Assembly (NCBI RefSeq): GCF_016107525.1
Contig: NZ_JABASR010000005.1
Coordinates: 1 to 64,000, forward strand
Direction of reading: 5' to 3'
Origin: Psychrobacter aquimaris
Lineage (GTDB): Bacteria; Pseudomonadota; Gammaproteobacteria; Pseudomonadales; Moraxellaceae
DNA length: 64,000 bases
Shown here: one piece after another, positions 39,319 to 45,300 of the stretch
Layout: each line of letters starts with the position of its first letter
How positions within the stretch are numbered: the first letter of the stretch is position 1
The notes under the pieces: model-generated
Told to the model about the DNA's origin: nothing
Databases searched by the model: none
The model's input: the letters and a program-made list of their open reading frames with translations, nothing else
Program-made: the position numbers and the translations under genes

Positions 39319-39705
39319 GGTTGTCCTTTGTGGTTTGTTCCTTAGGGTAAAGAGTCGCTCACTATCGCTTGGCGATATAAGATAAAGCCAATGTTGTCGT
39401 TAGTTATTATGCGTTTTATCCTACAGGCACATAAGCTAAAAATGATAGGATTTTGGCGGTTTTGTGTAACACAATAATTGAGTTTTGGTTATTATTTCTT
39501 GTGATTATAAAATGGATAAATAAAAAGTTGATTTTTCAGCGAAAAGCTATATATAACCTAAATAATTAGCTTATATATTTTAGTTTCGCTAATCAATAAC
39601 TTTTTACCGATTTCAATTTTATACTTTTCAGTAAACTATACTCATAGATGGTGGTATGAAAGCGGAAAAATCGCCTGAGCGCAAATGAATTATAAGGACA
39701 ACACC
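39319..39705. other. Intergenic region before the hemerythrin-like gene
   Basis: 387 AT-rich bases between divergent genes. A TATACT box (39637-39642) has no good -35 partner. Nothing else seen. Confidence 0.4.
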
Positions 39706-40296
39706 ATGGCTGCTTCTAATCACAATGTGACCTCTCAAGACCTACCAAATGGTGCGTCTGGTCTATCGCCGCGTCATCCTGACAGTCGACTTGAGACGGA
39801 TTGGCTATTTTTGTATGACCAGTTGCCACCTACTGATTGGTTCAAAGCCGATTATGTCTATAAGACCTCAGGCTGGCTTAATATACATGCTGACATACGC
39901 CAACGTCAGCGTATTCTGATTGAAATTAGTGGCGCTTATCGAATGAATAATTTGGAATGGTCAGCGTACCGTACTCAAACCTTACCACGGATTAATCAGT
40001 ATATTCTTAAACTGCATCACCATCACAATATTGAAGATCAAGCCTACTTCCCAACCTTCATTCGTATGTATCCTCAGCTAAAAGCAGGTTTCGAAATACT
40101 AGATCGTGATCATGTGCACTTGGATGCGTTATTGAATGAGCTGCAAGCGTTAAATGGTCACTTAGCGAAAAGTGACGTTGAAGACAAAGCACTCACTGAA
40201 CAACTGCATCAGACCTTAGTCAACGTGAGTGTGTTACTCTCACAGCATTTGACCGATGAAGAGGATTTAGTTATTCCTATTTTGGGGTTAAATTAA
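39706..40296 (+). CDS. Hemerythrin-like (HHE) domain protein
   Basis: A 196-residue protein from ATG 39706, which has TAAGGACA upstream; an ATG 21 bases earlier lies before this site. A four-helix hemerythrin fold is suggested by iron-ligand motifs in order: His in LNIHADIRQRQ, H-x3-E in LHHHHNIEDQAYFP, His in DRDHVHLDALL and H-x3-E in LLSQHLTDEEDLVIP. Such proteins bind a non-haem di-iron centre and sense or store O2 or NO, or repair iron-sulfur clusters. About 55 residues before the first ligand are polar and unassigned. The three BLUF genes follow on the same strand, 129 bases on. A functional link through oxygen or redox control is possible but unproven. Confidence 0.8.
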   Translation: MAASNHNVTSQDLPNGASGLSPRHPDSRLETDWLFLYDQLPPTDWFKADYVYKTSGWLNIHADIRQRQRILIEISGAYRMNNLEWSAYRTQTLPRINQYILKLHHHHNIEDQAYFPTFIRMYPQLKAGFEILDRDHVHLDALLNELQALNGHLAKSDVEDKALTEQLHQTLVNVSVLLSQHLTDEEDLVIPILGLN

Positions 40297-40424: not shown

Positions 40425-40934
40425 ATGTATAAAATTATTGATTACCTCATAGAAAAGAGTAGTGGCACGCCTGAAGAGAGGAATAAAGACGGCGAATCCA
40501 TTCTTGTTAATCTGACGTACATTGGTAAAAACAGCAAAGAAAATTCAGGAATATTTTTGGCTCGTACTTTTGAAAAAGCGAAAAGAAATAACGAGAACAG
40601 TAACATAACCTCAGCGCTTGTCATTAATGATGATTATTTTATTCAAAATCTCGAAGGCTCAAGATATGATATCAATGAGTTTTTGGCAAGAGTGATTAAT
40701 GAGCGTCCACACCTTGCACTTCAGGTGATAGATGTTGGAGAATTAGATTCACGTCGATGGAAAGGATTCTTGATCAAATATTTAACCTTAAACGCCCAAG
40801 ACGATGAGAATATGCTTAAGAGTTTGTCAGTAGGGGCTGATTTCAATCCTTATTTAATGAGTCAGACCCAAATTGCACACTTCATAACTTTGGTCTTTGA
40901 AGAGAATGCATTTGATAAAAACCAATTAAGCTGA
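40425..40934 (+). CDS. BLUF-domain blue-light photoreceptor, copy 1
   Basis: Single-domain BLUF (blue light using FAD) protein, 169 residues. With AppA numbering, Y21, N45 and Q63 correspond to Tyr32 (NLTYIG), Asn56 and Gln74 (YFIQNLEGS). The Tyr-to-Gln spacing of 42 is exactly canonical. The Asn pair Asn55-Asn56 is intact. At the Trp104/Met106 positions stand Phe115 and Ile117, with Trp112 three residues earlier. The C-terminal extension FNPYLMSQTQI resembles that of Acinetobacter BlsA. There is no output enzyme domain, so it should act through protein partners. GGA in ATTGGAATTTTT serves as ribosome site. This is the most canonical of the three copies. Confidence 0.88.
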   Translation: MYKIIDYLIEKSSGTPEERNKDGESILVNLTYIGKNSKENSGIFLARTFEKAKRNNENSNITSALVINDDYFIQNLEGSRYDINEFLARVINERPHLALQVIDVGELDSRRWKGFLIKYLTLNAQDDENMLKSLSVGADFNPYLMSQTQIAHFITLVFEENAFDKNQLS

Positions 40935-41075
40935 TTTCAAAGTAATCAACTCTGAAAAGTGCTTTTTTGGTGGTTGAATAAGTCAGATTTTTAATGACTA
41001 ATTGTGAAAAGCTTTGGGCAGATATTTTCTAAGTAATATTTTTAGTTAAAACAAATTTTATTTATCGGAATCTTT

Positions 41076-41558
41076 ATGCAGAATAAAACAAACTGTATTT
41101 CAATGACCAACAAAGACGGTGAAAATGCGCTTATAAGCTTAACGTATATCGGTAATAACAAAGGAAAAGATGACGGTATCGAGTTGATTCGTACGCTTGA
41201 AAAATGGCGAGTAAGCAACAAAGAAACGGATGTCACTTCAGCACTTGCGATTAATGATACTTATTTTATTCAAAATCTTGAAGGTTCAAGATTGATCATT
41301 AATGAAGTTCTAGCCAAATTGACTAAGGAGTACCCGCGTATTTTACTTCATGTTGTTGAGGTGAAGGAAATAGAGAGTCGTAGATGGAATGGCTTTTTAA
41401 TCAAGTATCTAACGTCAAACGACCAAGACACGGAAAATACACTCAAAAGTTTTTTGGCAGGTACTGAATTCAATCCTTATTTGATGAGACAAACGCAGAT
41501 CACAAGTTTGATAAAGGCACTATTTGAAGAGAGAAAGGTTAACTCAACATCAAATTAA
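41076..41558 (+). CDS. BLUF-domain protein, copy 2
   Basis: Tandem paralogue, 160 residues. Tyr24 (LTYIG) and Gln66 (YFIQNLEGS) keep the canonical spacing of 42. The first position of the flavin-contacting Asn pair is Ser47, the second is Asn48. Phe107 and Ile109 stand at the AppA Trp104/Met106 positions. The C-terminus again has FNPYLMRQTQI. Flavin binding is plausible, since other BLUF proteins tolerate a change at the first Asn position. A leader similar to that of the third copy (AGTTAAAACA and then a GGA site) precedes it. Probably transcribed with or like its neighbours. Confidence 0.85.
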   Translation: MQNKTNCISMTNKDGENALISLTYIGNNKGKDDGIELIRTLEKWRVSNKETDVTSALAINDTYFIQNLEGSRLIINEVLAKLTKEYPRILLHVVEVKEIESRRWNGFLIKYLTSNDQDTENTLKSFLAGTEFNPYLMRQTQITSLIKALFEERKVNSTSN

Positions 41559-41844
41559 CGTGCCAGTAATCGCCAGCCTTCGTTACTTTTAGTGGATTAT
41601 TTGGTAAGCAGTTTCATAATATTATGACTGACATCACTAATCTGCACTCTTAACGCTTGATCTATGTATCAGGTTTATTTCTATTTCGAGGTTAAATAGA
41701 GGCTGAATGTGAGTATTATTTAAGTTCTAGCCAATTATTATTAGAGATTACAGAGAGATAGAAAAATATGAAAAATATCGTTGAATAGATTGTTTTTTAA
41801 GTGCTATCTTAAGTTAAAACATATCGTTGTTAATTGGATTGATT

Positions 41845-42324
41845 ATGCAAGCAGCTACAGATTTTGAACCAGAAACGAGGAATAGAAGCGGCGAGCATAT
41901 TCTCATTAGTCTAACGTATATCGCCAAAAAAACCGAAGTAAATTCAGGAATGGAATTGACGCGTGCTCTTGAGCACTGGCGAAGATATTTCGAAGAAAGC
42001 GGTATAAGTTCAGCCCTTGTATTTAACGAGAACTATTTCATTCAGAATGTTCAAGGCTCAAGACCGGCTGTCAACCATGCTTTGGCGAAAATAGTTAGTG
42101 AATATTTGGATATATTACCCAATGTTATTGGGGTAGAGGAAATAGTAGTGCGTCGGTGGGATGGATTTTTGATCAAGTATTTAACGTCAAGTATTGAAGA
42201 TGAAGAATATGCATTAAAAAGCTTTTCAGCAGGTTCTGACTTCAATCCCTATCTCATGAAAAACTCTCAAATTGCCAGCTTTTTGAAGGCGGTTTTTGCA
42301 GATGAGCAGATTAACAAGATTTAA
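41845..42324 (+). CDS. BLUF-domain protein, copy 3, altered flavin pocket
   Basis: Tandem paralogue, 159 residues from ATG 41845, which has GGA upstream. An in-frame TTG 18 bases earlier is less likely. Tyr25 (LTYIA) and Gln67 (YFIQNVQGS) are present at spacing 42. Both flavin-contacting Asn positions are lost, to Tyr48 and Phe49. Phe108 and Ile110 replace the Trp/Met pair. The gene is intact, with the C-terminal FNPYLMKNSQI conserved, so it is not a pseudogene. It may bind flavin differently, be light-insensitive, or act as a partner for the other two. That is inference. Confidence 0.8.
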   Translation: MQAATDFEPETRNRSGEHILISLTYIAKKTEVNSGMELTRALEHWRRYFEESGISSALVFNENYFIQNVQGSRPAVNHALAKIVSEYLDILPNVIGVEEIVVRRWDGFLIKYLTSSIEDEEYALKSFSAGSDFNPYLMKNSQIASFLKAVFADEQINKI

Positions 42325-42378: not shown

Positions 42379-42443
42379 AGCTACCACCCATGAAAAAGCC
42401 GTCTATACACACTGTATAGACGGCTTTTTCATGGGTGGTAGCT
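42379..42443. terminator. Perfect 30-bp inverted repeat, bidirectional terminator
   Basis: The arms 42379-42408 and 42414-42443 are exact reverse complements around a 5-base loop ACACT. The inner part (AAAAAGCCGTCTATAC and its mirror) is a classic bidirectional terminator for the converging BLUF copy 3 and parC. The outer 12 bp (CTACCACCCATG / CATGGGTGGTAG) extends beyond what termination needs. Confidence 0.85.
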
Positions 42444-42483: not shown

Positions 42484-44790
42484 TCAGCCAACCTCAACAC
42501 TTGTCACATTCTGAAAGCCTCGTGGCAACTGCCCACCACGATTACCACGAGTGCCTGTGTAGTTGGCCAAATCATTGGGCTTTAGCGTCACATGACGTTT
42601 GCCAGCAGTAATGACAAGGCTGTCTTGCTGATTGAGTGGTGTGATAGCGAGCACTTCTTCATTCTCTTTCAATTTAATTAGTTTATTACCTTTACCGCGA
42701 GCCTGTTCAGGCAAATCAGCAAGCGCGAATATCAGTAAATATCCCGCATTGGTCACAACAGCGACATGGTCAGGTGCCACGCGTGTGCTGCTATTCTCAC
42801 CTTCAGTATTGGCTGTCACATTTACAGGTGAATCGATACGTGCAACAGGGAGTAAGTGACTATCAGCGGCTAAGTTGATGATGTTTTTCCCCGCTTTTTG
42901 ATTGCTATCGAGATTGCCAAGCGTATTGATAAAACCATAACCTGCGGAGCTAGCGAGGATGATGCGCTGATCGTTATCACCCGTTAATAACTGTTCAAAG
43001 CTGGCACCTGCTGGCGGCTTTAATACGCTGGTCAATGGATCACCTTGACCACGTGCCGAGGCAAGGTTGTGCGCATCGATACTATAGCTGCGTCCGGTAC
43101 TGTCGAGCACGTAGATTTTTTCATTGGACTTACCGCGCACGTGCGCTTGATAGCTGTCACCTGAGCGATAGCTCATACCAGCAGCATCGACGTCATGACC
43201 TTTGGCAGCACGAATCCAACCTGCCTTTGATAGGATGGCAGTGATAGGCTCGCTCGGTACGAGGTCAGACTCTTTTAATGCTTGCGCTTCTTCACGTTCT
43301 GCCAGTGGTGATACGCGCTCGTTGCCGTGTTCTTTCATATCAGCGGTGAGCTCATCGATCATCAAATTGGTCAGACTGTCTGGATTGTCCAAATACTCTT
43401 GAATAATGGCGCGTTCGGCAGCTAGTTCGTCTTGCTCACGGCGCAGCTCAATCTCTTCGAGCTTTGCTAGCTGACGCAGACGAATGTCCAAAATAGCATT
43501 GGCTTGAATGTCAGTCAGATCATAATCCTGCATCAACGATAATTTTGGATCGTCTTCTTCACGAATGATGCGAATGACTTCATCAATATTAAGATAAGCA
43601 ATCAGCAAACCTGCGAGGATGTGCAAGCGCTTATCGATTTTATCAAGGCGATATTGCAAGCGGCGCGTGACCACTGAGCGGCGACAGACGAGCCACTCTT
43701 CTAATATTTCTTTTAGGTTTTTGACCTGCGGTTTACCGTTCAGCCCAATCATATTCATATTGACACGGTAATTGCTTTCTAGATCAGTGCTGGCAAACAA
43801 ATGACTCATGACACGTTCAACATCGACTCGCGTTGAGCGCAGCTCAAGCACGATACGGCAAGCGTTTTCGTGGTCTGATTCATCGTGAATGTCGGTAATC
43901 CAAGGCAGCTTTTTGTCAGTCATGAGCTTGGCGATTTGCTCTTGAATTTTATTGCCTGAGACTTGGTAAGGCAGCGCATCGATAATGACTAAATTTTTCT
44001 CTTTGGGGTCAATATGAAAAGTCGCGCGCATCTTATAGCTGCCGCGTCCAGTCTCGTACATCGCCTGCAAGTCTTTTTTACTGGTAATGATTTCAGCAGG
44101 CGTTGGCAAATCTGGCGCTGGTATTGATTGGGTTAATTGCTTAACCGATAGCTCTGGATTTTTAAGCAAGCGAATTGCTGCGCGTACCACTTCGTTGAGG
44201 TTATGTGGCGGGATATCCGTTGCCATACCGACTGCGATACCAGTCGTACCGTTTAATAAAATATTAGGGAGGCGGGCAGGTAGGGTCGTTGGTTCCTGCA
44301 TCGTACCATCAAAGTTATCTTGCCAATCGACTGTGCCTTGACCTAACTCTGCGAGCAAAGTATTGGCATAAGCAGACATTTTGGCTTCGGTATAACGCAT
44401 GGCGGCAAAGGATTTAGGATCATCAGGGCTACCCCAGTTACCTTGACCAGTAATAAGCGGATAGCGATAGCTGAATGGCTGTGCCATTAATACCATCGCT
44501 TCGTAACATGCGCTATCGCCATGTGGATGGTATTTACCCAACACATCACCGACCGTACGCGCAGACTTTTTGGCCTTGGCAGTCGACTTTAGCCCAAGCT
44601 CGCTCATGGCGTAGACGATGCGGCGTTGTACAGGTTTTAGACCGTCGGCAATATTTGGCAGCGCCCGATCCATGATGACGTACATGGCATAATTGAGATA
44701 GGCCTGCTCAGTGAACTCCGCAACTGAGCGAGTATCCATCGGCTCATTAGGAATGATTGGGGCAATGGTAGGATCAATAACATCGGACAT
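42484..44790 (-). CDS. parC: DNA topoisomerase IV subunit A
   Basis: ParC cuts and rejoins DNA to unlink daughter chromosomes, with ParE. I start it at 44790 (768 residues; E. coli 752), where [11 protein letters not shown] leads into [20 protein letters not shown]. The ORF continues 61 codons up with no family match. The quinolone region [14 protein letters not shown] has the wild-type Ser and Glu (E. coli S80 and E84). The catalytic Tyr is in [11 protein letters not shown]. The C-terminal domain is a beta-pinwheel with degenerate repeats. No clear ribosome site is visible. parE is not in the window. Confidence 0.96.
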
Positions 44791-45300
44791 AAAATAGGAT
44801 TCACTTATCAGTTTTAATAGGTATAAATAATTGGTGCAAGCGTACAAATAGGATAGCGCTATCGTAAAGGATATTGGCAAAATTAAAAAGGCATAAGTCA
44901 GAATAGACGACAGATCGTGACGTGCTGGACGTGCGTGTTGCTTGCGCTTTGGCTCATAGCTTTTATACAACAAGAATTGATGAATTAATATTCGCTAGTA
45001 AATCACTGAAAAACTACTGATTATAGCTGTTAAGATTTTGATAGCTATGAAATTGTTGCCCGTCAAGACAGTTTGCGAACTCAAGTAGCAATCTTTTATA
45101 TTGAGTAGTCTGTATAAAGTGTGTATGTTAATGAACAGAGGGTTATTTACCGCTATATTGTTTGCTCATCACCATATCATTGCCTCACAGACGCGCTTGC
45201 CATTATGATGACAAGTCTGCGCTCTGAGTTTTGGTATTTTTATCACACTGTGATTCGCATGGGTTGACGGTAGCGTACTATTACTAGGAGAGAAAAGATT
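44791..45300. other. Divergent intergenic region parC / fadD1
   Basis: 510 bases that must hold both promoters. The first 180 bases are open in the parC frame but look non-coding. No promoter pair with both boxes was found; TTGACG at 45264 lacks a -10. CTAGGAGAG (45284-45292) is the fadD1 ribosome site. Confidence 0.4.

Follow-up and report, generated by a model that had tools for sequence, protein, structure and literature searches.

Among the closest described short BLUF proteins are the cyanobacterial PixD (Slr1694) and TePixD (Tll0078), and excerpts from PMC5899715 describe how, in PixD, Asn32 and Gln50 bind the flavin C4=O, how Gln50 binds Tyr8, and how an oligomeric dark state is broken up by light. 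For AppA, simulations described in an extract of PMC10278134 show the contacts of Arg84, Asp82 and His85 shifting on activation, and in parts of PMC3554667, where one P. cryohalolentis BLUF is mentioned, BlsA and the other short Acinetobacter BLUFs cluster separately from the Psychrobacter homologue. Here we describe a tandem BLUF locus of three genes (copies 1, 2 and 3) in 64,000 nucleotides of Psychrobacter aquimaris DNA (contig NZ_JABASR010000005.1, positions 1 to 64,000; this whole stretch is referred to as the window) which, judged by sequence, belongs to a BLUF subfamily that is conserved, has had its pocket rebuilt and occurs in roughly half of the genus genomes that were searched. The locus is genus-specific and tandem, with no partner gene known from a search limited to its neighbours, unlike PixD and TePixD, to which identity is about 20%, and copy 3 lacks all five of the PixD residues Asn32, Arg71, His72, Trp91 and Met93. 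We take N45, R84, H85, W104 and M106 to be the AppA equivalents of these pocket residues, and all of them are lost or changed in the locus family; AppA Asp82, with Arg84 and His85, presumably corresponds to PixD position 69, with 71 and 72. The nearest tree rows outside the locus clade are ordinary Psychrobacter paralogues such as the pair on contig C33 of G000, which, unlike the locus clade, keeps Asn32, Arg71, His72, Trp91 and Met93. Within the library and terms searched, no literature was found on these Psychrobacter proteins or on natural BLUFs without the Asn.

The frames of all three copies are intact and in tandem (Table 1), with an alternative TTG start at 41827 that would extend copy 3 to 165 amino acids. 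They score 52.7, 39.6 and 29.9 bits respectively against the Pfam BLUF family (PF04940; curated cut-off 25 bits), and no other domain was over the Pfam or NCBIfam cut-offs. Each has the photoactive Tyr and Gln, 42 residues apart (Tyr32/Gln74, Tyr24/Gln66 and Tyr25/Gln67), and in alignments the columns of PixD N31-N32 read NN in copy 1, SN in copy 2 and YF in copy 3, so that the Asn of the flavin C4=O (N32) is present in the first two and is Phe in the third. The intact frames and these residues had been proposed from the letters of the window alone (the sequence-only reading), along with the lack of an output domain, and they are borne out by the open reading frames, Pfam scores and alignments, which did not restore an Asn to the pocket columns of copy 3. 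The changes are not confined to that column. All three copies, the NN copy 1 included, are without the PixD-equivalent Arg71, Trp91, Met93, Ser10, Gly39 and Asp69, and hence have neither the D.RH motif that follows helix 2 (PixD D69, R71, H72; position 71 is Pro, Pro and Leu) nor the strand-5 Trp and Met (PixD W91, M93), which are replaced by Phe and Ile throughout. In PixD numbering, copy 1 keeps Ala28, Asn32 and His72; copy 2 has Trp28 and Arg for His72; copy 3 has Trp28, Asp for His72 and Gln for Glu53. Copy 1 is by these residues less altered, yet not normal.

Table 1. Genes of the BLUF locus and its two neighbours, with codons of key residues (positions in the window)
Feature	Position	Strand	Length (amino acids)	Key codons
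Hemerythrin HHE-domain protein, upstream neighbour	39685..40296	+	203	
Copy 1, BLUF-like, N-type	40425..40934	+	169	Tyr32 40518-40520; Asn55-Asn56 40587-40592; Gln74 40644-40646
Copy 2, BLUF-like, N-type variant	41076..41558	+	160	Tyr24 41145-41147; Ser47-Asn48 41214-41219; Gln66 41271-41273
Copy 3, BLUF-like, YF-type	41845..42324	+	159 (from ATG 41845)	Tyr25 41917-41919; Tyr48-Phe49 41986-41991; Gln67 42043-42045
Topoisomerase IV / gyrase subunit A-type protein, downstream convergent neighbour	42484..44973	-	829	

Across the genus the same pattern was seen in 100 aligned intact copies of at least 140 amino acids, from which 13 pieces under 140 amino acids in 8 genomes (apparently broken copies in 6, contig-edge pieces in 2) were left out. 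These were compared with 83 unique BLUF open reading frames (88 in all, identical ones counted once) from the other six BLUF genes of the genome and from elsewhere in the genus and the class, a set made up mostly of best-scoring matches with few lower-scoring ones, so that divergent BLUFs are under-sampled. In the comparison set twelve PixD positions reach 95% conservation or more (8, 10, 32, 39, 41, 50, 53, 54, 69, 71, 72 and 91), and of these the locus family keeps 8, 41, 50 and 54 throughout, with a few exceptions each at most, while 32 and 53 are kept in the N-type. Ser10, Gly39 and Trp91 each occur in 0/100 family copies against 83/83 comparison BLUFs, Arg71 in 0/100 against 80/83 and Met93 in 0/100 against 77/83; Asp69 (5/100 against 82/83), His72 (13/100 against 81/83), Asn32 (29/100 against 83/83) and Glu53 (33/100 against 82/83) are retained in a minority, and a small residue at position 28 is found in 5/100 against 83/83, Trp being present in 95 family copies. 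Because Asn at position 32 is invariant in the comparison BLUFs, YF at 31-32 exceeds chance variation, and because the five residues absent from every family copy are absent from the NN copies too, copy 1 cannot serve as a normal reference photoreceptor. That the photoactive pair lies within the 4 of 12 kept positions was considered as a signal and set aside, as a hypergeometric probability calculated by hand (about 0.09) was too weak for use. Three tandem BLUF genes also occur in a distant gammaproteobacterium (L178, G371 contig C7:109989-111647) and contribute to the comparison set, where Asn32 is invariant (83/83). Three of the other six BLUFs (G000 contigs C33, C12 and C11; L003, L004 and L005) end in or near a hydrophobic stretch which, by eye, resembles a membrane anchor.

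The source genome has nine BLUF genes, namely the locus trio and six others. All 27 of the named loci coding for close relatives of copy 3 are titled Psychrobacter, and a search of 105 genus genomes with copy 3 gave 73 with a match at an expectation value (E) of 1e-6 or better, the genus set being built with copy 3 as query and locus places being those among the matches listed. Copies or pieces of the locus family are in 54 of the 105, the source genome included; the remaining 19 matching genomes gave E 1e-13 to 7e-35, and the two of these that were opened (G064 and G072) held ordinary BLUFs. Of the 51 genomes scored as lacking the locus, 32 thus had no match and 19 had weaker matches only, and short locus pieces could hide in the unopened ones among the latter. 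Loci with N-type copies only should have been detected, since the N-type copies among the matches listed score E 7e-43 or better. In 348 Moraxellaceae genomes (genus included), a search with copy 3 gave hits at E 1e-8 in two genomes outside the genus, with identities of 32% and 26% and, by eye, with the W.M and D.RH motifs kept, and so by sequence the locus family is genus-specific in the sampled genomes. The Psychrobacter plasmids NZ_MN657122.1 (7,038 base pairs) and NZ_CP012532.1 (9,708 base pairs), both small and typed as mobilizable, also carry BLUF genes, which have about 40% identity to copy 3.

Positions 31-32 of the 100 intact copies read YF in 67, NN in 27, YL in 4, DN in 1 and SN in 1, so that YF or YL is the majority state (71/100). 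In the first copy of G025 (L080), an N-type copy that keeps NN, the photoactive Gln50 is replaced by Lys, the sole case among the 100. A YF/YL copy is present in each of the 53 genomes that have any intact copy, 27 of which have intact copies of both types and 26 YF/YL only, and no genome (0/53) has N-type copies only; the YF type forms the core of the locus, to which the N-type copies are accessory. Among the 46 genomes free of broken or contig-edge pieces, the arrangements were a single YF (20), a single YL (1), YF-YF (3), YF-YF-NN (13) and other mixtures (9). Thus the residues of copy 3 recur widely in relatives, whereas the NN-SN-YF order of the window was seen once in the 46.

These arrangements bear on the proposal of the sequence-only reading that copy 3 is a decoy or heteromeric partner of NN copies, or more broadly that labour is divided in tandem, with N-type proteins as light sensors and YF proteins as dark-state partners, decoys or heteromer subunits. 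The two types do stand intact together in 27 of the 54 locus genomes, and the light-dissociated dark-state oligomer of PixD (excerpts from PMC5899715) offers a precedent for such an assembly, but 24 of the 46 genomes have a YF/YL-only locus family, 21 of them with a single copy, genomes of the converse kind are absent and the putative sensors are themselves without Arg71, Trp91 and Met93. A tandem NN partner therefore cannot be required, although a BLUF protein encoded elsewhere in the genome could act as partner, and we regard this division of labour as improbable.

In the tree the 100 locus copies form one clade (100/100), within which all the YF copies and one YL copy make up a clade of 68 rows (100/99), where copy 3 is placed beside the YF copies from G002 and G088 (99/94). 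The loss of the Asn from copy 3 thus did not take place in this genome; the YF clade is old and copy 3 belongs to an old, conserved core type. For this reason, and since copies 1 and 2 also miss several near-universal BLUF residues, the suggestion of a graded loss in one copy of an otherwise normal set is not supported. A small YL clade from three genomes stands apart from the YF clade. Copy 1 lies in a five-row group (99/85), consisting of the rows with Ala or Ser at position 28, that splits first from the rest, the branch that splits off the other 95 rows having 92/82 only. With the trait columns removed, the tree calls for two separate origins of the change at N32, in the YF and the YL clade, but a single clade is not rejected (approximately unbiased test, p 0.463); on a tree with those columns kept, position 32 changes three times in total (F, L and N states). 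From which copies share which residues we infer a stepwise order, in which the common ancestor would have changed Trp91 to Phe and Met93 to Ile and lost Arg71, Ser10 and Gly39, the small residue at 28 would next have become Trp in most copies, and Asn31-Asn32 would last have become Tyr-Phe (Leu in a few), with Glu53 changing to Gln in the YF type.

Relaxed constraint, with the locus decaying after light sensing was lost, would be an alternative explanation, and apparently broken copies of both types are present in 6 of the 54 genomes (G034, G036, G040, G041, G048 and G060), although these may partly be assembly errors. Further points of this kind are the 51 of 105 genus genomes without a copy 3 match better than E 7e-35, and single YF/YL pairs with ratios of nonsynonymous to synonymous change (dN/dS; pairwise Nei-Gojobori counts on related pairs with dS of 0.1-1.5) of up to 0.60. 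That value is the highest of 1829 pairs among the 71 YF/YL copies, however, where the median is 0.17; among N-type copies it is 0.20 (239 pairs) and among the 21 solo YF/YL genes 0.19 (114 pairs). Copy 3 itself differs from its two nearest relatives by dN of 0.18 and 0.20 at dS of 1.5 and 2.0, which is outside the dS limit. With medians of 0.17-0.20, the locus genes are maintained and the YF/YL genes are under purifying selection, in agreement with the earlier suggestion that copy 3 is not decaying; disabling frameshifts, which would have spoken for the opposite, do seem to occur in those few relatives, yet intact frames predominate, with 100 intact copies and a YF/YL gene in each genome that has any. 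Decay is accordingly a very unlikely explanation.

The predicted model of copy 3 has a PixD-like BLUF fold, residues 17-153 aligning with PixD, and helices at 117-125 and 140-151 that are C-terminal to the BLUF domain; as a short protein with C-terminal helices and no output domain, it resembles the PixD-type short BLUFs. The one clade, the residue pattern, the conservation and this fold are best explained, with a probability a little under one half (about 0.47), if the locus encodes signalling proteins of the PixD fold whose rebuilt pocket has ceased to hold flavin in the canonical manner, with the YF type acting as a conserved, PixD-like regulator through protein-protein contacts. In YF proteins bulky aromatics at 28 and 32 would lie one turn apart on helix 1, position 32 being a flavin contact, and since these two side chains come together with the loss of Asn32, Arg71 and His72, the pocket would be non-canonical for flavin adenine dinucleotide (FAD). 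Such a protein could be fixed in a single signalling state, or its state could be governed by something besides the usual flavin photocycle, and the retained Tyr-Gln pair would be a buried hydrogen-bonded element.

Several points weigh against this interpretation. Two of the five copy 3 models exceeded a mean predicted local distance difference test score (pLDDT) of 70, the remaining three being at 50-53, and the copy 1 model (mean pLDDT 59) was too poor for use. The Tyr-Gln pair is kept nearly unbroken, which would be odd if flavin chemistry were gone: Tyr8 is found in 100/100 family copies (83/83 in the comparison set) and Gln50 in 99/100 (82/83), and both are in 71/71 of the YF/YL copies. 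Of 94 sites mapped on the tree, 10 (Tyr8 included) had no change and 19 (Gln50 included) had at most one, so the conservation of the pair is high and not unique. Published PixD mutants, as far as excerpts from PMC5899715 describe them, also tolerate single losses, for replacement of the Asn alone leaves photoactivity, W91F still cycles with 50-fold slower recovery, and M93A retains the red shift and appears locked in the signalling state.

It is also possible, if somewhat less probable than loss of canonical binding, that flavin is still bound and Tyr-Gln photoswitching kept, with the pocket changes tuning kinetics or affinity (for example towards a long-lived signalling state at low temperature), in which case the locus would encode several photoreceptors, each of them tuned. 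The near-unbroken pair and the photoactive single mutants keep this alternative strong, and Trp28, appearing where Trp91 is lost, could be a compensating Trp swap. Against it, the joint changes at 10, 32, 39, 69, 71, 72, 91 and 93 exceed any single mutant we found described, Phe32 beside Trp28 should crowd the isoalloxazine site, and the N-type copy of G025 has dispensed with Gln50 itself. As the YF type joins the known tolerated losses with changes at 10, 39, 53, 69, 71 and 72 and with Trp28, canonical FAD binding has more likely been lost from the YF protein than kept, and copy 3 is, as had been suspected, probably not an ordinary BLUF photoreceptor. The most altered version may be a former light sensor put to new use. 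An unlikely extension of the preferred interpretation is that the YF protein is a BLUF-fold regulator without a canonical photocycle whose Tyr-Gln switch is driven by another ligand, temperature or a partner protein, so that in this genus a light-sensing fold would have been turned to a new signal, with the N-type copies as preserved intermediates.

The locus offers a natural series that runs from a canonical BLUF relative through the N-type (Trp, Met and Arg lost) to the YF type (Asn lost too), and a single one of the 100 copies departs from the Tyr-Gln pair. Natural proteins could thus be used to ask what flavin binding, photochemistry and signalling each require of the pocket. Should YF proteins prove to bind no flavin, light sensing cannot be read from a BLUF annotation at this locus.

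The topoisomerase IV / gyrase A-type gene that converges on the locus is a housekeeping gene and serves as a locus marker. The upstream hemerythrin gene was considered as a fixed partner and rejected as unlikely, because 40 of the 105 genus genomes have a match (E 1e-20) and BLUF-locus genomes such as G007, G008 and G009 have none at that level. Between copy 3 and the convergent gene (window positions 42380-42442) lies a long inverted repeat, noticed by eye, whose arms span about 29 bases and which is likely a two-way terminator. Upstream of many YF genes in relatives, for example in G065, G063 and G022 (L105, L104 and L079), there is an operator-like palindrome, TATACTTTATCTTAAAGTATA, with near variants, which mostly starts about 60 (at most 76) bases 5' of the YF start codon. 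Best palindromes with 8 or 9 of 9 arm matches were present in 43 of 93 distinct upstream stretches, which are mutually related, compared to about 12 in mononucleotide shuffles, and 27 of the 43 were of the TATACTTTATCTTAAAGTATA type; the best palindromes upstream of the three copies in the window score 7, 7 and 6.
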